The notes under the pieces: generated by a model | Told to the model about the DNA's origin: nothing | What the model saw: the letters and a program-made list of their open reading frames with translations, nothing else | The model's database searches: none | Source of the DNA: Kordia algicida OT-1 | Lineage (GTDB): Bacteria > Bacteroidota > Bacteroidia > Flavobacteriales > Flavobacteriaceae | Direction: 5' to 3' | Assembly (NCBI RefSeq): GCF_000154725.1 | Contig: NZ_DS544873.1 | Coordinates: 3,509,339 to 3,573,338, forward strand | DNA: 64,000 nt | Shown here: positions 16,982 through 60,409 of the stretch, piece after piece | How positions within the stretch are numbered: the first letter of the stretch is position 1 | Layout: the number at the start of each line of letters is the position of its first letter | Made by a program: the position numbers and the translations under genes

Positions 16982-18247
16982 TTAAACTAAAAACTGAAAT
17001 AAATCAGGTTTATTATTTAGATAGTCGCCATAAAAGTTACGTAATTTCATTTTCGTAATTAAGGCGTCTAAATCTTTGGCATTTTTTAATTGCAATCCTA
17101 CGACTGCTGCACCATTTTCACGATTGGTTTTTTTGGTATATTCAAAATGTGTGATATCGTCAGTTGGACCTAAAATTTCTACTACAAATTCACGCAAAGC
17201 TCCTGCACGTTGTGGAAATTTGATAATAAAATAGTGTTTTAAGTTTGCATGTAGTAATGCACGTTCTTTGATTTCGGCAGTTCGTGTAATATCATTATTG
17301 CTTCCGCTGATGACACACACCACATTTTTATCTTTTATTTCAGTTGCATATTGCGATAATGCACTCAAACTTAAAGCTCCAGCAGGTTCTACCACAATCG
17401 CTTGTCGGTTGTATAAATCTAAAATCGTCTGACAAACTTCGCCTTCGTCAACCGTAATCATATCGTGTAAATTTTCTTTACAGATGGCAAAATTTAAATC
17501 ACCAACACGTTTTACCGCAGCACCGTCCACAAAGTTTTCTATGTTTTTTAAGCTTGTATTTCTTTCTTTTTGAATGGAAGTAGACATTGATGGCGCACCT
17601 TTTGGTTCTACACCAATAATTTTTGTGCTTGGAGACAACATTTTGAATACAGAAGATAATCCTGCGGACAATCCGCCGCCGCCAACAGGCACAAATACAT
17701 AATCAATCGGAGTTTCTAATTGATGTAAAATTTCCAATCCGATGGTTGCTTGTCCTTCAATGACTTTTTCGTCGTTAAACGGATGAATAAACGTTTTATT
17801 TAAACGTTCTGATTGTTCCATGGCTGCATGATACGCATCGTCAAACGTATCGCCAATTAAAACAACCTCAACATAGTTTTCACCAAACATTTTGACTTGT
17901 TCAATCTTCTGGTTTGGTGTTGGTGTTGGCATGAATATCGTGCCTTTTATTTGTAAAAGTTTACAAGATAATGCTACTCCTTGTGCGTGATTTCCAGCAC
18001 TTGCACACACGATTTCATTTTCTATTTGTGTTGCCGTTAAGGAAGCTATTTTGTTGTATGCGCCACGAATTTTATACGATCGTACTTGTTGCAAGTCTTC
18101 TCGCTTTAAGTAAATATTACAATTAAATTCTTTGGAATAGTAATCGTTATAACTCAAAGGCGTTACCGAAGCAATGCCTTTGAGTGTTTTTGCAGCTTTT
18201 TTAACAGCTGCTAACGTTGGAGCGTATGTTTTTGTGGTTGTGGTCAC
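16982..18247 (-). CDS. ilvA: Threonine ammonia-lyase (biosynthetic)
   Basis: Converts threonine to 2-oxobutyrate, the first committed step to isoleucine. 421 aa; the PLP lysine is K59 in [10 protein letters not shown], the glycine-rich phosphate loop is [12 protein letters not shown], and [10 protein letters not shown] is near residue 103. The last ~90 residues form a single ACT-like regulatory domain ([12 protein letters not shown], then [16 protein letters not shown]), so feedback inhibition by isoleucine is expected. It follows ilvC after a 284-nt gap filled with palindromic repeats and precedes gapN by 22 nt. Confidence 0.95.
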
Positions 18248-18304
18248 GAGTTTGTTGTTTGTTCTTTGTTTTATGTTGTTTTTCTATGAAAATTTTAGCT
18301 ATCC

Positions 18305-18334
18305 GTGAGAAACTGAATCAAGTTCAGTTTGACG
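18305..18334 (+). repeat. Palindromic repeat family B, right half only
   Basis: GTGAGAAACTGAATCAAGTT then CAGTTTGACG. The hairpin arms are ACTGAA/TTCAGT; other copies have ACCGAA/TTCGGT or GCTGAA/TTCAGC, so the arms change together. Confidence 0.65.
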
Positions 18335-18401
18335 AAAAATTTTTCAATCAATAAAACATTGGTACATTTTCAAATTATCAAATTGATACATCTATTAGAT
18401 A

Positions 18402-18503
18402 CGTCTTTGCGAAAGTTATGAAAAAACTTGTGGCAATCTGTTACTTCAAATACTAAATATGCTTTTTGATAATGAGATTACCGCGCTGTCGCTCGTAAAG
18501 ACG
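18402..18503 (+). repeat. Palindromic repeat family A, copy 2
   Basis: 102 bp, co-linear with 15198-15300. The ends read CGTCTTT / AAAGACG where copy 1 has CGTCATT / AATGACG, so both arms changed together. It lies between ilvC and ilvA. Confidence 0.75.
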
Positions 18504-18531
18504 AATCATCGTTTTTATAAAAAAGCATGTT

Positions 18532-20034
18532 TTAAACCGCAATAGGCTTTTCATTATTTACCGTTGTTTTGATCGTTTTCATCGCTGTCATGGCTGCTCT
18601 GAGTCGTTTTCCAACCGCTTCAATTGGATGATTTCGTATGGCATCATTTACCGCAATTAAGTCTAGATTGTCTACTGCATTTGAGGTTGCAAATGATTTT
18701 CCTATCACAGATGTATCAACCGTTTTCATAAAGTCTGTTAGCAACGGTTTTGCTGCATGATCGAACAGATAACAACCATATTCTGCTGTATCTGAAATGA
18801 CACGATTCATTTCAAATAGTTTTTTTCGTGCGATCGTATTTGCGATTAATGGTAATTCGTGTAATGATTCGTAATAGGCGGAATCTTCAATGATTCCAGC
18901 ATGCACCATTGTTTCAAATGCCAATTCTACTCCCGATTTTACAAAAGCAACCAACAACACACCATGATCGAAGTATTCTTGCTCCGAGATATGATCGCTG
19001 GTTAACGCTGTTTTTTCAAATGCAGTTTCGCCTGTTGCTTCACGCCATTTTAATAGGTTTTTATCGTCATTTGCCCAATCCTCCATCATCGTTTTAGAGA
19101 AATGCCCTGAAATAATATCGTCCATATGTTTCTCAAATAATGGTTTCATAATGGTTTTTAATTCCTCAGAAAGTTCAAAAGCTTTCAGTTTTGCAGGATT
19201 TGACAAGCGATCCATCATATTGGTAATTCCGCCATGTTTCAGTGCTTCCGTGATCGTTTCCCAACCTAATTGAATGAGTTTTGCTGCATAATTTGCGTCA
19301 ATTCCATCTGCGACCATTTTATCAAAAGCCAAAATAGAACCTGTTTGCAATACGCCACAAAGAATGGTTTGTTCGCCCATTAAATCACTTTTTACTTCTG
19401 CAATGAAAGACGATTCTAGTACACCAGCTCTGTGTCCGCCAGTCGCAACGGCATACGCTTTTGCTTGCGCCCAACCTTTGTTTTCTGGGTCATTTTCTGG
19501 ATGTACTGCAATTAATGTTGGCACACCAAAACCACGTTTATATTCTTCTCTCACTTCCGTTCCTGGACATTTTGGCGCGACCATGATTACCGTGATATCT
19601 TCGCGAATTTTTGTGCCTTCTTCAACAATATTGAAACCGTGCGAATAGCTTAGTGTAGCACCTTTTTTCATTAACGGCATTACGGCTTTTACAACGTTGG
19701 TATGTTGCTTGTCTGGTGTAAGGTTTAGTACCAAATCGGCTTCAGGAATGAGTTGTTTGTAAGTTCCAACTTTAAAACCGTGCGATGTTGCATTTTGGTA
19801 TGAGTTGCGTTCTTCGTCAATGGCAGCTTGTCGCAACGCATACGAAATGTCCAAACCAGAATCGCGCATGTTTAATCCTTGGTTCAGTCCTTGTGCGCCA
19901 CATCCGACAATGACGATTTTTTTGCCTTTGAGTGCGTTGACACCTTCTGTAAACTCAGAAGCATCCATAAATCTACATTTTCCTAATTGTGCTAATTGTT
20001 CTCGTAATGATAGTTTGTTGAAATAATTTGACAT
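18532..20034 (-). CDS. ilvC: Ketol-acid reductoisomerase, long class II
   Basis: Isomerises and reduces acetolactate / acetohydroxybutyrate in the valine and isoleucine pathways, using NAD(P)H and Mg2+. 500 aa, the long class II form with a duplicated C-terminal knotted domain (class I is ~330 aa). The Rossmann motif is [20 protein letters not shown] near residue 36. Metal-binding and active-site stretches include [14 protein letters not shown], preceded by SSFIAEVKS, and a second domain with [23 protein letters not shown]. It follows ilvN after 134 nt that hold a long inverted repeat. Confidence 0.96.
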
Positions 20035-20055
20035 TTTTCTATGTTTTTGATATTA

Positions 20056-20151
20056 GAGTCAAGAATCTAGAGCCTAGATTTTTTTACTCTTATGTTTTTT
20101 ACTGTTTTTCGTTATTTGTGATTTGTTTGATTTCGTCTAGAATTCTGACTC
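20056..20151. repeat. Inverted repeat between ilvN and ilvC
   Basis: Arms GAGTCAAGAATCTAGA (20056-20071) and TCTAGAATTCTGACTC (20136-20151) are near-perfect reverse complements separated by 64 nt. It could form a large stem in the ilv mRNA. Confidence 0.6.
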
Positions 20152-20168
20152 AAACATCTGGTTCTATT

Positions 20169-20699
20169 TTAATAATTGATCGCTTCTAGTATTTTTGATA
20201 TTTTCATTTCCTCTTTAGAGACTGCAATACGTCCTGAACGTGTAAATTGCATGATTCCAAAACCGCTGAGTTCTCTATATAGCAATTCTATTTCTTCTTT
20301 ACGTCCCGATTTTTCTAAGACAAAGAATTGTTTGTTTACTGTGACAATTCTCGCATTGTTATCTATGATAATGTTTTGAATTTGTTGCTCATTAAATAAT
20401 AAGTCTGATTTCATTTTGAAAATGCACGATTCCTGATACACGATTTCTTCTTCGGTATGATAATACGCTTTGATGACTTCGACTTGTTTTTCTATTTGAC
20501 CGATGATTTTTTTCATTTGTTCTTCTGTCAAATTCACTACAATAGTCCATTTTGAAACATTTTCTATTTCAGAAACCGACGAATTGATACTTTCTATATT
20601 GATGTGTCTTCGTTGAAAGATCGCTGAAATTCTATTCAACAATCCGATGTTATTTTCAGTATATACCGAAACCGTAAATTGTTTGCTTGTTGTTTCCAT
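20169..20699 (-). CDS. ilvN: Acetolactate synthase small (regulatory) subunit
   Basis: The regulatory subunit of acetohydroxyacid synthase; it binds valine and activates IlvB. 176 aa. An ACT domain at residues 7-80 has TVSVYTENNIGLLNRISAIF and RRHINIESINSS, the usual effector-binding beta-alpha fold. A C-terminal ALS_ss-type domain ends in FGIMQFTRSGRIAV. The gene starts 1 nt after the ilvB stop, so equal translation of the two subunits is likely. Confidence 0.95.
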   Translation of the reverse strand: METTSKQFTVSVYTENNIGLLNRISAIFQRRHINIESINSSVSEIENVSKWTIVVNLTEEQMKKIIGQIEKQVEVIKAYYHTEEEIVYQESCIFKMKSDLLFNEQQIQNIIIDNNARIVTVNKQFFVLEKSGRKEEIELLYRELSGFGIMQFTRSGRIAVSKEEMKISKILEAINY

Positions 20700-20700
20700 A

Positions 20701-22434
20701 TTAACTCAATCTTATGTCTGAAACCGATGCTCCTGTTGGAATCATTGGAAATACGTTATCTTCTTTTTCTACACATACTTCAAGGAAGTAGGCTTCTTTG
20801 CTTTGCATCATTTCTTGTACCGCTTCCGCTAATTCGTCTCGTTTAGTGACACGTCGTGCATTTAAATGATAGCCTTTTGCGATTGCTACAAAATCGGGAT
20901 TCGTCATTTCGGTAGAAGCATAACGTTTGTCAAAAAACAGCTGTTGCCACTGACGCACCATTCCTAAGAATTCGTTATTTAACACCACAATTTTTACCGC
21001 AGCTTTTTGCTGAAAGATGGTTCCTAATTCCTGAATGGTCATTTGGTAACCGCCATCGCCACAGATACAAACTACTTCACGATCGGGCGCAGCCATTTTC
21101 GCTCCAATGGCGGCTGGCAAACCAAATCCCATCGTTCCCAATCCGCCAGAAGTAATATTGCTTTTTGACTGATTGAAGTTTGCATAACGACAGGCAATCA
21201 TTTGATGCTGACCGACATCAGAAACGATTGCGGCTTCGCCTTTGCTTTGTATGTTGATTTCTTTCATTACTTCTCCCATTGTCAATCCTTCTTTGGTTGG
21301 ATGCAAGTCATTTTTTATAACTTTTTCATATTCAATCGCGTATAAATCGTCGAATGCACGTTTCCACACATTGTGCGATTTTTTATGAATTAATGGTAAA
21401 ATAGCTTTTAAACTCACTTTTGCATCACCTAAAACTGCGACATCTGTTTTTACATTTTTATCAACTTCTGCAGGATCAATTTCGAAATGAATGATTTTGG
21501 CTTGTTTGGCATAGGTTGCTAAATTTCCTGTGACACGATCATCGAAACGCATTCCAATCGCAATTAATACATCACATTCATTGGTTAATACATTCGGTGC
21601 ATAGTTTCCGTGCATTCCTACCATTCCTACATTTAACGGATGTTCGGTTGGAATTGCAGAAACGCCCAAAATCGTCCATGCAGCAGGAATTCCTGCTTTT
21701 TCAATAAAGGCTTTAAATGCTGCTTCGGCTTTGCCCAAAATCACACCTTGTCCCCAAACTACCATTGGCTTTTTCGCGTTATTTATCAATTCTGCGGCAG
21801 CGCTCAAAGCATTTTTATCCGTTTCAGGTATCGCTTTGTAACTGCGAACTCCTGTGCATTTTTTATACGAAAAGTCAAATTCTTCAAATTGAGCATCTTT
21901 GGTAATGTCGATTAAAACTGGACCTGGACGACCACTTCTAGCAATATAAAATGCTTTTGCCATGACTTCTGGAATTTCAGAAGCTTTCGTAATTTGATGA
22001 TTCCACTTAGTGACTGGCGTAGAGATTCCGACAATATCAGTTTCTTGAAATGCATCACTTCCTAGTAAATGCGAAGCGACTTGTCCTGTGATACATACCA
22101 TTGGTGTAGAGTCTATTTGTGCATCGGCAATTCCTGTGATTAAATTTGTTGCTCCTGGACCAGACGTTGCTATTGCGACTCCAACTTCTCCAGAGATTCT
22201 CGCGTATCCTTGCGCGGCATGTGTTGCACCTTGTTCATGACGCGTTAATACGTGATGAATTTGATCTTGACATTTGTATAATTCGTCATATACTGGCATG
22301 ATGGCACCGCCAGGATATCCGTATAGTGTCTTTACACCTTCTGCCAACAAACATTTGATGATCGCTTCGCTTCCTGAGAGACGTTCTGTTTGTGGTTGTG
22401 TTTTTTGTTGTTTTTGTATGGTTTTTGTTTCCAT
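20701..22434 (-). CDS. ilvB: Acetolactate synthase large (catalytic) subunit
   Basis: A thiamine-diphosphate enzyme joining pyruvate with pyruvate or 2-oxobutyrate. 577 aa with the three ThDP-family domains. The catalytic glutamate lies in LTRHEQGATHAAQGYAR near residue 67, a FAD-binding middle domain follows, and the ThDP/Mg motif starts GDGGYQMTIQEL and ends ...VVLNN near residue 475-500. The subunit pair ilvBN is complete. The 131-nt gap to ilvD holds palindromic repeats of a Bacteroidota type (ATTCCCGC, TTTCGACTGCGCTC). Confidence 0.96.
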   Translation of the reverse strand: METKTIQKQQKTQPQTERLSGSEAIIKCLLAEGVKTLYGYPGGAIMPVYDELYKCQDQIHHVLTRHEQGATHAAQGYARISGEVGVAIATSGPGATNLITGIADAQIDSTPMVCITGQVASHLLGSDAFQETDIVGISTPVTKWNHQITKASEIPEVMAKAFYIARSGRPGPVLIDITKDAQFEEFDFSYKKCTGVRSYKAIPETDKNALSAAAELINNAKKPMVVWGQGVILGKAEAAFKAFIEKAGIPAAWTILGVSAIPTEHPLNVGMVGMHGNYAPNVLTNECDVLIAIGMRFDDRVTGNLATYAKQAKIIHFEIDPAEVDKNVKTDVAVLGDAKVSLKAILPLIHKKSHNVWKRAFDDLYAIEYEKVIKNDLHPTKEGLTMGEVMKEINIQSKGEAAIVSDVGQHQMIACRYANFNQSKSNITSGGLGTMGFGLPAAIGAKMAAPDREVVCICGDGGYQMTIQELGTIFQQKAAVKIVVLNNEFLGMVRQWQQLFFDKRYASTEMTNPDFVAIAKGYHLNARRVTKRDELAEAVQEMMQSKEAYFLEVCVEKEDNVFPMIPTGASVSDIRLS

Positions 22435-22470
22435 AATTCTAATTTTTTAATGCCTTTCGATTTTCAAATA

Positions 22471-22556
22471 CATCTCGACTGCGCTCGATGTGACAAACTG
22501 ATGATGAGATTCCCGCTTTCGTTTCGACTGCGCTCAACGTTCGCGCGGGAATGACG
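22471..22556 (+). repeat. Palindromic repeat with TCGACTGCGCTC words (family D)
   Basis: Two related units: CATCTCGACTGCGCTCGATG with TGACA, then GAGATTCCCGC, TTTCGACTGCGCTCAACG and GCGGGAATGACG. ATTCCCGC pairs with GCGGGAAT. It lies inside the ilv operon between ilvD and ilvB. Confidence 0.65.
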
Positions 22557-22565
22557 AATTTTATA

Positions 22566-24245
22566 CTAAAATTCATCAGTTACGCAACCTTTGGATGCAG
22601 ATGAAACTGTTTTTGCATATTTGTATAATACACCGCGTTCAAATTTGAGTTCGGGTGCTTTCCATTGTTTTTTACGTTCTTGAAGTTCTTCGTTTGAAAC
22701 TTCTAATTGTATCGTATTCGTTTCTGCATCAATGGTAATGATATCGCCATCTTTTACTAAAGCAAGTGTTCCGCCTTCTTGTGCTTCTGGCGTGATGTGT
22801 CCGACGACAAAACCGTGTGTTCCTCCAGAAAAGCGTCCATCAGTAATTAATGCAACATCTTTTCCTAAACCTGCACCCATGATTGCTGCTGTTGGCTTTA
22901 GCATTTCTGGCATTCCTGGTCCGCCTTTTGGTCCTTCATACCGAATGACGACGACGTCTCCTTTTTGCACTTTTCCATCACGAATTCCGTCATTGGCTTC
23001 GTATTCACCTTCAAATACTTTTGCTTTTCCAGAGAATTTTAAACCTTCTTTTCCTGTGATTTTTGCCACGCTTCCTTCACTTGCTAGGTTTCCATAAAGC
23101 ATGCGTAAGTGTCCTGATATTTTTATTGGATTTTCCACAGGTTTGATGACATCTTGACCTTCTGTTAAGTCATCGACATCTAATAAATTTTCTGCCATTG
23201 TTTTTCCCGTAACCGTTAAACAATCGCCATGAAGCAATCCTTTTTTGAGTAAATATTTTAATACCGCAGGAATTCCGCCGACAGCGTGTACGTCTTCCAT
23301 TAAGTATTTTCCACTAGGTTTTAAGTCTGCCAAAAACGGCGTTTCATCGCTTATTTCTTGAAAGTCTTTGAGTGTGAAATCAATTTGTGCAGCTCTGGCA
23401 ATTGCTAAGAAGTGTAATACTGCATTGGTTGATCCGCCCAAAATTGTTACTAAACGAACTGCATTTTCCAAAGATTTTCGAGTAATAATGTCTGATGGTT
23501 TGATATCTTTTTCTAACAAAACACGCATTGCTTCGCCCGCCGCAACCGATTCTTGTTTTTTAGCATCGCTCAACGCAGGATTTGATGAATTGAATGGTAA
23601 TGTCATTCCCAATGCTTCTATAGCAGAAGCCATGGTGTTTGCGGTGTACATTCCGCCACAAGCACCAGCACCTGGACACGCTTTTTCAACAATGTTTTGG
23701 TATTCTGTTTCGTCCATAGTTCCTGCAACTTTGCTTCCCCAAGCTTCAAAAGCAGAAACAACATCGAGTTTTTTTCCGTTGTGACAACCAGAATCAATGG
23801 TTCCGCCATAGACTAAGATACTTGGGCGATTTAGGCGAATCATTGCCATTAGTGCGCCTGGCATGTTTTTGTCACAACCAACAACCGTGATTAATCCGTC
23901 ATAACTCATTGCTTGCACTACCGTTTCCATAGAATCGGCAATGATATCGCGTGAAGGCAATGAATAACGCATTCCTGGTGTTCCCATGGAGATTCCATCA
24001 CTTACGCCAATTGTATTGAAAATAAGTCCGACAACCTCCTCATTTTTTGTTCCTTGTTTTGCCAGTTTTGCCAGATCGTTTAGGTGCATGTTGCACGGAT
24101 TTCCTTCGTAACCTGTACTTGCAATTCCGATGATGGGTTTGAAAAAGTCTTCTTTCGTTAATCCAATGGCATGCAACATGGCTTGTGCCGCAGGTTGCGT
24201 AGGATCTTGTGTGACTGTTTTGCTGTATTTATTGAGATTGTTCAT
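22566..24245 (-). CDS. ilvD: Dihydroxy-acid dehydratase
   Basis: Dehydrates dihydroxy-isovalerate / methylvalerate to the keto acids that IlvE aminates. It needs an Fe-S cluster. I chose the ATG at 24245 (560 codons; [15 protein letters not shown]) because an upstream in-frame ATG at 24338 would lie deep inside ilvE. Cluster cysteines are visible in [21 protein letters not shown] and [17 protein letters not shown]. The C-terminal part has [20 protein letters not shown]. The start lies 2 nt past the ilvE stop codon. Confidence 0.95.
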
Positions 24246-24247
24246 AT

Positions 24248-25141
24248 TTATACTGCTTCTGATAGTTTTTTGGAGCGTTCGCAAAGCACTTCTTTTTGGT
24301 ATAATTTCATGAGTTTGTAACCGAGAGACGCTTCCCACGAAAGTGGAAAATGATAGTCATCTAATGATTTTAGTCCAACTACTTCTGCCGCCGTTCCTGT
24401 AAAGAATGCGCTGTCTGCTTGTTTTAGCTCGGCTAGCGTAAAGTGTTTTTCTTCTACAGAGAAACCTTCTTCTTTACAGATTTCAATAATGGTAGATCGG
24501 GTGATTCCTGCCATGATGTGTCCTCGTTTTGGCGTGTAGAGTTTGCCATTTTTTTCCATAAATACGTTGGCTCCAGAACATTCTGCTACGTTTCCGTTCA
24601 TGTCTAGCAATAATGCTTCGTCGTAACCTGCATTTTTGGCTTCGTTGGTAGAGAGAATGGAGTTTGTATAATGTCCTGTGACTTTGGCTTCTACGAAACA
24701 TGATTTCGGATTTGGACGTTCAAAGCGAGAGGTTTTTACTTTGAGAAGTTTGTCGCCCATGTATTTTCCCCATTCCCAACATTGGATTGTGAGTACAGAT
24801 TCGTCTGATGTGAGTAAACTCATGTTTGAACCTGTGGTTAGTATTGGACGAATGTATGCGTCTTGTAGGTTGTTTTTTTCTAGTAATTGGTAGGTGATGT
24901 TTACTAATTCTTCAATTGTGTGATTGAACGGAATTCCCATGACCTCAGCACCATATTTTAGGCGTTCGTAATGTTCGGTTGCTTTGAAAATTTTTGTACC
25001 AAATTTAGTTTTGTATGCTCTGATTCCTTCAAATACACCATTTCCGTAGTGTAATGCTTGACTGTATAGGTTTCCAGAAGCTTTTTCTGGATGCATAAAG
25101 GTACCATTGTGGTAAATGATGCTGTTTTCTTTGTAATACAT
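24248..25141 (-). CDS. ilvE: Branched-chain amino acid aminotransferase
   Basis: Transfers the amino group from glutamate to the keto acids, the last step to Val, Ile and Leu. 297 aa, fold-type-IV PLP enzyme. [12 protein letters not shown] is near residue 33, the PLP lysine is in [11 protein letters not shown] near 152, and [15 protein letters not shown] is near 180. The phosphate-binding [10 protein letters not shown] is near 217 and FFTGTAAEV near 257. It is the first structural gene of the ilv operon, with about 640 nt of leader upstream holding two attenuators. Confidence 0.95.
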
Positions 25142-25369
25142 TGTTAGTGTTATTATGATTCGAATTTAAATTATTGTGTTTCTTTTTTGAATTCAGTTTT
25201 GGAATTTCACCTAAAACCAATTGTTAATTTATTTATTTATTTATCTGATTTTTAAAGTTTTACACTTTATCAAATACAATGTTCAACTTGCTGTTTTTTT
25301 AATGTGTTTTTTGTTCTTTGTTCTTTGTTTTTCGTCGTTTCTATTGTTTTTTTGATTTTTTACCAAAAC

Positions 25370-25403
25370 AAAAAGCCTGTATCAATTGTGATACAGGCTT
25401 TTT
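25370..25403 (-). terminator. Proximal ilv attenuator terminator
   Basis: On the minus strand a perfect 15-bp stem, AAAAAGCCTGTATCA / TGATACAGGCTTTTT, encloses a 4-nt loop and ends in a U-tract. It starts 25 nt after the stop codon of the proximal leader peptide. TGATAC (25426-25421), 2 nt past the leader stop, can instead pair with GTATCA of the first arm (25394-25389), making a competing antiterminator. Confidence 0.85.
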
Positions 25404-25428
25404 GTTTTATATAGCAAATCGTATCAAC

Positions 25429-25482
25429 TCAGGTGGAGTTCATAATAATAATGACGATGATGCTAATTATGGTTTTGTTCAT
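25429..25482 (-). CDS. Proximal ilv leader peptide (17 aa)
   Basis: ATG at 25482 to TGA at 25431-25429 encodes MNKTIISIIVIIIMNST: seven isoleucines and one valine in 17 residues. It lies just before a strong terminator and upstream of ilvE, the classical layout of ribosome-mediated attenuation. When Ile-tRNA is short, a ribosome would stall on the Ile run and leave the antiterminator segment free; at the stop codon it would cover that segment. A 5-bp stem AACTC/GAGTT overlaps the stop codon region. No homology was checked; the call rests on composition and context. Confidence 0.82.
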   Translation of the reverse strand: MNKTIISIIVIIIMNST

Positions 25483-25499
25483 TGTTTTGTTTTTTATAA

Positions 25500-25579
25500 C
25501 GTCATTCTGAACTTGATTCAGAATCCCATAAAACTGGGTTTTTATTGTGATGAGCAACCGAATCAAGTTCGGTTTGACG
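25500..25579 (+). repeat. Palindromic repeat family B, complete copy inside the ilv leader
   Basis: CGTCATTCTGAACTTGATTC AGAATC on the left and ATGAG, ACCGAATCAAGTTCGGT, TTGACG on the right; each half is a hairpin and the ends CGTCA/TGACG are inverted. It lies between the two attenuators. Confidence 0.7.
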
Positions 25580-25601
25580 AAATTTTAACTTCATATTTTG
25601 A

Positions 25602-25658
25602 AATCCCGCTTTTCAACGGGATTATTTCAATTCACACTTTTAGTGTGTGATTTGAAAT
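25602..25658 (+). repeat. Double-hairpin repeat family E, copy next to the distal attenuator
   Basis: Hairpin AATCCCG/CGGGATT, then TTTCAATTCACAC/TGTGTGATTTGAAA. It has the same layout as the two copies at 42378-42440 and 42501-42575. Confidence 0.55.
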
Positions 25659-25661
25659 AAA

Positions 25662-25688
25662 AAAGCCTTCCCGATAAAGGAAGGCTTT
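25662..25688 (-). terminator. Distal ilv attenuator terminator
   Basis: Minus-strand hairpin AAAGCCTTCC / GGAAGGCTTT (10 bp, 7-nt loop) followed by U6. An alternative pairing of CGATAAGGAA (25726-25717, straddling the leader stop codon) with TTCCTTTATCG (25682-25672) gives 10 bp with one bulge and breaks up the first arm and loop. It could also serve as the gltBD terminator, but the antiterminator argues for attenuation. Confidence 0.8.
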
Positions 25689-25720
25689 GTAAATTTTATA
25701 GTGAAATTATATAGCATTCC

Positions 25721-25783
25721 TTATCGTTGTGAGCGAATCACAATGACATTGATAGAAATGATATTTATAATTTGTTTGTTCAT
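25721..25783 (-). CDS. Distal ilv leader peptide (20 aa)
   Basis: ATG at 25783 to TAA at 25723-25721 encodes MNKQIINIISINVIVIRSQR: seven isoleucines and two valines in 20 residues. It begins like the proximal leader (MNK-x-II-x-II), suggesting a duplication. The antiterminator strand runs across its last sense codon and stop codon, so a terminating ribosome would mask it. A near-consensus AATATTTG box lies at 25800-25793, 10 nt before the ATG. It lies 173 nt after gltD on the same strand. It is too short for routine gene calling. Confidence 0.8.
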   Translation of the reverse strand: MNKQIINIISINVIVIRSQR

Positions 25784-25955
25784 TTGTTAGATCAAATATT
25801 GTAAAAGTTTTTTTGTATTCCTAATTTATGGTTGAAAAATGTTGTTGGTTTTTCTGTGTTTGCAGTAGAGTAAAGTAAGTTGGATTGTAAATCCATAACA
25901 CTTACTTCTAATGAAATATGCAAAATTTTGAAAATTGTTAACGTTTATATTAAAG

Positions 25956-40579: not shown

Positions 40580-40830
40580 TTACCACGAATTCACGAATTG
40601 TTTTTCTTCTTCTCTTTGCTTTGATTATTTTCACGAATTGTTTACTGTTGTGGAAAGTCCTTTGAAACGTCTTTACGAGGTAGTATGACGAAGTAATCTG
40701 TTTGTTAGGTTTCCGTTCTCAATACTCATATCTAAATACTCAATACTTTTTTACCACGAATTCACGAATTGTTTTTCTTCTTGTCTTTACTTTGATGATT
40801 TTCATGAATTGCTTACTGTTGTGGGATGCT
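40580..40830 (-). repeat. Long dispersed repeat, copy 2 (inverted relative to copy 1)
   Basis: The reverse complement matches 10340-10530 with few differences. Here the ~75-bp unit beginning TTACCACGAATTCACGAATT is present twice (40580-40652 and 40751-40825) around the central AGTATGACGAAGTAATCTG part. It fills most of the 487-nt gene-free stretch 40481-40967; the rest holds array d, a B half-repeat and a heptamer tract. Confidence 0.8.
40717..40751 (+). repeat. Heptanucleotide degenerate tandem repeat
   Basis: TCTCAAT, ACTCATA, TCTAAAT, ACTCAAT, ACTTTTT in one 7-nt phase; the complement of the tract at 10377-10411. Confidence 0.7.
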
Positions 40831-40850
40831 GAATCGAGTTCAGCATGACG
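40826..40850 (+). repeat. Palindromic repeat family B, half copy
   Basis: ATGCTGAATCGAGTTCAGCAT followed by GACG; the hairpin arms GCTGAA/TTCAGC have changed together compared with other copies. Confidence 0.6.
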
Positions 40851-41457: not shown

Positions 41458-41595
41458 AAAAGAGGCTGTCTAAAATGTGCTTTAAACGTCATTCTGGGCT
41501 TGATCCAGAATCTCATCGTACTGATTATCAAATGTTATGAGAAACCGAATCAAGTTCGGTTTGACGAAATCTTTACTTTTTAGACAGCCTCTTTT
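41458..41595 (-). terminator. kbp terminator with a palindromic repeat inside its loop
   Basis: Arms AAAAGAGGCTGTCTAAAA (41458-41475) and TTTTTAGACAGCCTCTTTT (41577-41595) are 18-bp complements with flanking A/T. The ~100-nt loop is occupied by a complete family B repeat. It lies 10 nt past the kbp stop codon. Confidence 0.75.
41487..41566 (+). repeat. Palindromic repeat family B, complete copy in a terminator loop
   Basis: CGTCATTCTGGGCTTGATCC AGAATCTCAT on the left and ATGAGAAACCGAATCAAGTT CGGTTTGACG on the right. The left arm CTGGG/TCCAG differs from CTGAA/TTCAG of other copies but still pairs (one G-U). Confidence 0.7.
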
Positions 41596-60330: not shown

Positions 60331-60409
60331 CGTCAAGCTGAACTTGATTCAGCTTCTCATAACAGTACGTGAAAATTTTGTAAGATTCTGAATCAAGTTC
60401 GGAATGACG
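60331..60409 (+). repeat. Palindromic repeat family B, complete copy
   Basis: CGTCAAGCTGAACTTGATTC AGCTTCTCAT on the left and AGATTCTGAATCAAGTTCGG AATGACG on the right. Confidence 0.65.

Follow-up and report, generated by a model that had tools for sequence, protein, structure and literature searches.

In the textbook account of amino-acid attenuation each operon has one leader, and the ilvGMEDA operon of E. coli has a single attenuator. Amino-acid control in Bacteroidota is, to our knowledge, little studied. In Flavobacterium psychrophilum, which belongs to the same family as the organism considered here, 'strong clues' that point to leader-peptide attenuation have been described upstream of amino-acid operons (PMC9723704), and a word search of the main text of that paper gave no occurrence of 'ilv' or 'isoleucine'. 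Ribosome-mediated attenuation of the trp type is described in PMC3641672, where the Salmonella mgtCBR operon, with two attenuators that sense ATP and proline, is called 'a singular example'. The macrolide resistance operon mefA/msrD also has two ribosome-mediated attenuators, regarded as a 'double-lock system' against basal expression (PMC10314930), and for tandem T-boxes or c-di-GMP riboswitches that read the same signal a more digital response is expected (PMC12452182). Among the matches listed by our search of the openly readable literature, we found no report of serial leader-peptide attenuators that read the same signal on an amino-acid operon.

Here we analyse the window, that is, the whole stretch of 64,000 nucleotides from Kordia algicida OT-1, which lies within a complete 5.03-Mb chromosome. 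Upstream of its ilv operon there are what look like two complete ribosome-mediated attenuators, one after the other on a single leader RNA, which would control the operon; we consider this reading likely, with a probability of roughly 0.8. The initial annotation had proposed that ilv is preceded by two Ile/Val attenuators acting in series, and this core claim has gained support from conservation, from alternative pairing, from a promoter-like site upstream and from relatives in which the units are close-set. The reading rests directly on the sequences, their conservation, geometry and pairing potential, synteny and the serial layout. Its core is supported by comparative genomics; the mechanism, that is, the transcription start, translation, stalling, termination and the multiplication of read-through, is what we infer.

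The ilv locus and its two isoleucine-rich leaders

The first gene of the operon (Table 1), ilvE, starts with an ATG at 25141, 228 nt past 25370, and exceeds the cut-off of the NCBIfam model ilvE_I. The 176-aa ilvN-like ORF had no NCBIfam match at 1e-30 and is named by its position. The upstream neighbour on the same (minus) strand is gltD, and the 1500-aa ORF upstream of gltD looks like gltB. A noncoding stretch separates gltD from ilvE, and it contains, in the direction of the minus strand, leader 1, terminator 1, leader 2 and terminator 2, followed by ilvE. An Rfam search of the window returned no family at the gathering score, T-box included.

Table 1. Features of the ilv locus, in positions of the window
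Feature	Position	Strand	Basis or remark
Promoter-like site P1: TTAGGA (25824-25819), 18 nt, AATATTTG (25800-25793)	25793..25824	-	inferred
Leader ORF 1, MNKQIINIISINVIVIRSQR, 7 Ile + 2 Val	25721..25783	-	ORF list
Unit 1 hairpin 1:2, TTGTGA/TCACAA, within the leader ORF at the last Ile/Val codons	25727..25743	-	
Unit 1 region 2, CGATAAGGAATGC, contains the stop codon; putative antiterminator arm	25714..25726	-	
Unit 1 terminator (regions 3:4 + U-tract), stem 25688-25662	25656..25688	-	32 nt past stop
Dispersed palindromic repeat GATTCTGAATCAAGTTCAGAATGAC, copy in the inter-unit gap	25501..25525	-	outside the mechanism
Leader ORF 2, MNKTIISIIVIIIMNST, 7 Ile + 1 Val	25429..25482	-	ORF list
Unit 2 hairpin 1:2, AACTC/GAGTT, across the stop codon	25426..25440	-	
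Unit 2 region 2, TGATAC..GCT, immediately past the stop codon; putative antiterminator arm	25413..25426	-	
Unit 2 terminator (regions 3:4 + U-tract), stem about 25402-25370	25366..25402	-	26 nt past stop
Conserved block past terminator 2, TTGAACAT.. to ..TAAATTCGAA	25161..25286	-	possible second promoter or operator
Controlled operon ilvE, ilvD, ilvB, ilvN-like, ilvC, ilvA	16982..25141	-	ORF list + NCBIfam search

The two Ile-rich frames of the minus strand had been reported in the initial annotation, with coordinates and Ile and Val counts that proved exact. It had also placed a terminator hairpin with a U-tract less than about 35 nt past each leader, in agreement with the distances in Table 1, and had stated that ilvE follows. 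The latter is correct for terminator 2; terminator 1 precedes unit 2 and not ilvE directly. A simple terminator scan picked up terminator 1 and not terminator 2.

How unusual such leaders are can be judged within the window, which contains 565 ATG-started ORFs of 12-30 aa; four of them have at least seven Ile, and leaders 1 and 2 are the densest. At the local Ile codon frequency of 7.6%, the probability of at least seven Ile is 3e-4 for leader 1 and 9e-5 for leader 2 (per ORF, uncorrected for the number of ORFs). A lax scan for a leader followed by a terminator, run on both strands of the window, gave 28 terminator-like sites and eight 'units', three of which have an ATG start. Among these three, only leaders 1 and 2 have seven Ile; the third (7204, plus strand) has four.

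Two further observations concern the same stretch. The dispersed repeat GATTCTGAATCAAGTTCAGAATGAC, with up to 3 mismatches, has four copies in the window against 0 expected (25501-25525, 40825-40849, 41488-41512 and 60384-60408). Antisense to the leaders there is a 110-aa open frame (25318-25650, plus strand), which is probably not a gene.

The alignment of the region upstream of ilvE from relatives, a check that the initial annotation had called for, shows that the Ile-rich leaders are kept and that the stems are mostly paired. The rows of this alignment were selected for having a leader ORF, some starts and ends were set by hand, and unit 1 of locus L024 was added afterwards. In the 41 aligned loci leader 1 has 19-21 codons and leader 2 has 16-21 codons, with a TTG start of leader 2 in L032 and a GTG start in L042. 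The length of the leaders varies among the loci by whole codons.

Pairing, stop-codon geometry and serial layout

In unit 1, 98.7% of cells are paired in hairpin 1:2, and two pairs have changes on both sides, a number reached by 18 of 500 shuffles. The duplex of regions 2 and 3, the putative antiterminator, has a free energy of -15.0 kcal/mol in the window (z = -4.5). Measured against dinucleotide shuffles of region 2, its z is below -1 in 36 of the 41 loci, and it is weak (z above -1) in five (L012, L013, L020, L027 and L093). Here 69.8% of cells are paired, and three pairs (13 cells) have changes on both sides, which is not above shuffles (219/500). Terminator 1 has -15.9 kcal/mol in the window (z = -4.6), or -15.4 when it is compared with the duplex; the number of its pairs that changed on both sides, two, is likewise not above shuffles (339/500).

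In unit 2, the fraction of paired cells is 95.7% for hairpin 1:2 and 92.7% for the 2:3 duplex. Since neither has any pair that changed on both sides, covariation is uninformative there. The 2:3 duplex has -7.8 kcal/mol in the window (z = -1.9), and by the same shuffles of region 2 its z is below -1 in all 41 loci, with a mean of -4.3. For terminator 2 we find -19.0 kcal/mol in the window (z = -6.2), or -18.1 when it is compared with the duplex, and four pairs with changes on both sides (15 cells), which is above shuffles. When the two alternatives are compared in the window, antiterminator and terminator are near-equal in unit 1 (-15.0 versus -15.4), and the antiterminator is much weaker in unit 2 (-7.8 versus -18.1).

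Relative to the end of the stop codon, region 2 starts at -8 to +2 nt and ends at +6 to +18 nt in both units of the aligned loci; a ribosome at the stop codon could have region 2 within reach in both units. The distance from the last Ile/Val codon to region 2 has a median of 11 nt, with a range of 4 to 15 in unit 1 and of -2 to 17 in unit 2. The shortest of these distances count against the attenuator reading, as do the weak unit 1 antiterminators of five loci and the weakness of the unit 2 antiterminator in the window. The sequence features that characterise a ribosome-mediated amino-acid attenuator can be found here: a leader rich in control codons, an intrinsic terminator before the first gene, a hairpin 1:2, an antiterminator that would exclude the terminator (with modest compensatory support in unit 1 and none in unit 2), a stop codon at region 2 and a cognate operon directly downstream.

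In the proposed mechanism, transcription would begin just upstream of leader 1. When tRNA charged with Ile (or Val) is short, the ribosome would stall in the Ile/Val run and leave region 2 free to pair with region 3, so that terminator 1 would not form and the polymerase would continue; the same decision would then be repeated at leader 2 and terminator 2. With ample amino acids, the ribosome would run on to the stop codon and cover region 2, and the terminator would form. Since the polymerase must pass both units, the read-through fractions would multiply, and repression should be tighter and the response steeper than with one unit.

The promoter-like site P1 has a predicted start near 25788, which would give leader 1 a 5' UTR of 5 nt; in F. 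johnsoniae the transcription start is numbered from the final G, five nt downstream (PMC6847099). In 28 of 40 loci the combination TTAGGA-N18/19-AATATTTG ends 9 nt upstream of leader 1, and a 5' UTR of 5 nt is predicted for leader 1 in 28 of 40. P1-like sites stand ahead of leader 1 in Kordia, Tenacibaculum, Gelidibacter-like and Winogradskyella loci; the exception is L032, which has none. Of the 40 loci, 37 have a WAHHTTTG motif at most 60 nt upstream of leader 1, against a mean of 3.2 and a maximum of 8 in mononucleotide shuffles. The first base of P1 is A, compared with T in F. johnsoniae, and the stricter TAHHTTTG is accordingly found in 1/40 loci. A sigma-70 promoter scan, which looks for a type of promoter not suited to this phylum, gave 5 sites against 5.6 expected. 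We also note that the mRNA of leader 1 would be nearly leaderless and that leader 2 starts internally, with an A-rich start.

Between terminator 1 and leader 2, WAHHTTTG is present in 3 of 37 loci (shuffles: mean 0.8, maximum 5). The gap between the units, with 10 nt of unit 1 included, is at most 40 nt in 26 of 37 loci, and in Tenacibaculum and in L081 leader 2 starts about 4-20 nt past the U-tract of terminator 1. The window has a gap of 176 nt, which contains the copy of the dispersed repeat and has no WAHHTTTG. Given the promoter-like site before leader 1 and the mostly short gaps, the units look serial, that is, arranged in series and not ALTERNATIVES.

Past terminator 2 lies a conserved block, possibly a second promoter or operator. 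In 46 aligned loci, the leaderless L043 and L095 among them, the stretch from the last terminator to the first gene contains the recurring blocks TTGAACATCATA, TGATAATCA, TG..TTTAA and TAATTTCGAA, and these are also seen at L169-L175 and others, before ilvE or ilvD. Since the block is kept in leaderless loci, some ilv transcription may bypass both switches. Potentially, a second promoter in this block could even carry most of the ilv transcription, perhaps under the control of a DNA-binding regulator, with the attenuators tuning a minor upstream transcript. The recurrence of the blocks speaks for this, as does the motif TAHHTTTG, present in 10 of the 44 segments that lead from the last terminator to the gene, more than in mononucleotide shuffles (mean 2.6, maximum 7). 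On the other hand, the 228-nt segment of the window has no WAHHTTTG, the segments match a P1-type promoter no better than shuffles do (median -2.0 versus -1.2), and there is no room for the block where unit 1 ends 13 nt (L035, L036, L038) or 41 nt (L193) before ilvE. We regard a dominant second promoter as unlikely.

It could also be that the two attenuators sense different things, in the manner of the two signals of mgtCBR; examples would be Ile as opposed to Val, or translation starting at a near-leaderless 5' end as opposed to internal initiation. The short 5' UTR predicted for leader 1 in most loci, as opposed to the internal A-rich start of leader 2, would fit, and so would the distinct scores of the two unit types (see below) and a different choice of Val codons (leader 1 uses GTG and GTC, leader 2 uses GTC and GTA). 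However, the mean number of Ile and Val per leader is nearly equal, with 7.3/2.3 in leader 1 (40 loci, L024 left out) and 6.7/2.3 in leader 2 (41 loci); in terms of an mgtCBR-type test for two signals, the Ile and Val content of the two leaders is alike. Two separate signals seem improbable to us.

Conservation, origin and spread of the pair

Both units are found in 10/10 Kordia loci upstream of close ilvE homologues (the window, L005-L010, L028, L090 and L093). An eleventh Kordia genome (G004, locus L240) has no close ilvE and carries both units directly before ilvD, which brings the count to 11/11 Kordia genomes. The pair is also present in 26/26 loci of the Tenacibaculum group (L012-L027, L029-L034, L039-L041 and L044, where L039 is a Bacteroidia MAG) and in 2/2 Gelidibacter-like loci (L081, from Gelidibacter japonicus, and L094). 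Unit 1 stands alone in three Winogradskyella loci (L035, L036 and L038) and unit 2 alone in L011 and L042. L037 starts at a contig end inside an apparent terminator 1 and has unit 2. Upstream of the close ilvE homologues of L043 and L095 we saw neither unit. By eye, a tRNA-like sequence can be seen upstream of the lone unit 1 in L035 and L038, about 300-420 nt before ilvE.

Since each unit is found elsewhere without the other, each is probably self-sufficient. This bears on the idea that one unit regulates and the terminator of the other is a relic or an insulator against read-through from gltD. It is true that gltD lies upstream on the same strand, but the frame, the control codons, the antiterminator arm and the terminator of both units are kept in 38 close loci, and either unit can stand alone before ilv, so that a merely insulating or decayed unit is quite doubtful.

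The initial annotation had read the MNK start shared by the two leaders as a sign of duplication. Relatives do not bear this out, as their leader 1 begins with MKKQ.. and their leader 2 with MNQF.. or MSRN... Duplication of one unit was also considered on the basis of cross-scores, which are 40.2 bits when unit 1 is scored with the unit-2 model and 38.1 bits when unit 2 is scored with the unit-1 model, and is unsupported: an ordinary terminator elsewhere in the genome (G000:C1:4148686, L116) scores 40.2 bits, and the cross-scores are no better. Since there is no cross-recognition above background and MNK is not kept, the two units look like distinct attenuator types and not like copies. A recent duplication was seen in L145 only, in its last two units.

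Two covariance models, R1 for unit 2 and R2 for unit 1, were searched against 249 genomes of Flavobacteriaceae at an E-value of 1e-6. R1 matches 40 genomes and R2 matches 60, which makes 82 in all, 18 of them with both; 167/249 are without a match. In all 18 genomes with both units, unit 1 comes first, and the units are less than 180 nt apart in 17 and about 690 nt apart in G271. The next gene is ilvD or ilvE in 78/78 matched loci tested. This constancy, together with the attenuator-type geometry of the stop codon, argues against the leader peptides being hydrophobic proteins of the type I toxin-like class. That class consists of short hydrophobic peptides, and the leader peptides are indeed short and rich in Ile and Val, yet we consider this explanation extremely improbable.

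A detector of leader and terminator units adds the two-unit loci of G126 and G040, and reading by eye adds G143 and G142. Taken together with the model matches, at least 22 of the 82 genomes have more than one unit. G142 (L145:850-1250) has three leader and terminator units in series before ilvE, and the last two are near-identical. The detector misses leaders that are sparser in Ile or have odd starts; the second or third units of L135, L139, L145, L206, L056 and L061 were found by eye. As the reading by eye covered 21 of the 78 loci, more second units may exist. In a sample of 60 genomes, ilvD is found in 44, five of which have two units (G000, G023, G031, G040 and G108). For the other 39 we found one unit or none (G018 and G026 are cut by contig ends), and many ilv loci of Flavobacteriaceae likewise have one unit or none that we found.

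Of 41 more ilvE loci, taken from other lineages, 39 show at least one leader and terminator unit with a lax detector and 35 with a stricter one; L084 (Rhizobium) and L099-L113, which are distant aminotransferase loci, were outside this leader scan. Two serial units with ATG leaders were found by the detector in L046, L047, L072 and L049 (the last with a longer ATG start) and by eye in L056 and L061. These six leader pairs are possibly independent tandems. We discounted as spurious the TTG-started 'units' of L064, L068-L070 and L098.

On an ilvD tree of 95 rows, mainly of leader-bearing loci, the label 'both' changes 18 times (4 of the changes are forced by starred branches), compared with a mean of 26.6 for shuffled labels. 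This suggests that the state with both units was gained or lost repeatedly, on a tree that is weakly supported (14 of 92 inner branches are starred) and in which the duplicate row L208 is mislabelled 'none', being the same genome as L240, which is 'both'.

Relation to known systems

The initial annotation had called serial attenuation of one operon an unusual design. This holds against the textbook cases; on the other hand, the design recurs in Flavobacteriaceae, and operons with two attenuators (mgtCBR, mefA/msrD) are known. The serial arrangement is more widespread than the annotation could tell. We would give even odds to a broader reading, in which a family-wide design reads one charged-tRNA signal twice (thrice in one genome) by independent serial ribosome-mediated terminators. 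The leak would be multiplied down and the response sharpened. For amino acids, the design would correspond to tandem riboswitches and to the macrolide 'double lock'; it would be built from two distinct types rather than by duplication and would have been gained or lost repeatedly.

Relatives with unit 1, unit 2, both or three units form a natural panel for the study of serial attenuation, i.e. of its leak, dynamic range and steepness. Furthermore, the two covariance models and the leader alignments could be used to annotate short unlisted leader genes across Bacteroidota.

With E. coli ilvGMEDA and trp, the Kordia locus shares control codons for the end product, the 1:2, 2:3 and 3:4 pairing and an intrinsic terminator, and with the former also the ilv operon. 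It differs from E. coli ilvGMEDA in its two serial units, its Bacteroidetes-type promoter and the predicted near-leaderless first leader. Like mefA/msrD, it has two ribosome-mediated attenuators per operon, and the one studied in mefA/msrD has an intrinsic terminator (PMC10314930). There, the second attenuator regulates msrD exclusively and the stalling is caused by the drug (PMC10314930), whereas in the Kordia ilv locus both units precede the first gene and the codons are those for the operon's own products.

In ErmB induction, two leader peptides are needed for one gene, which resembles the Kordia pair, but this is translational attenuation by erythromycin and not termination of transcription (PMC8274638). 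The likeness to tandem T-boxes and c-di-GMP riboswitches lies in two complete switches in series that read the same signal; in those, the RNA itself binds the tRNA or the ligand (PMC12452182), whereas in Kordia a translating ribosome would do the sensing. Finally, mgtCBR likewise has two short ORFs and two attenuators on one leader RNA before the first gene (PMC3641672). Its stem-loops are unlike intrinsic terminators (PMC3641672), whereas in the Kordia ilv locus the terminators of both units are intrinsic and the two leaders have similar control codons.
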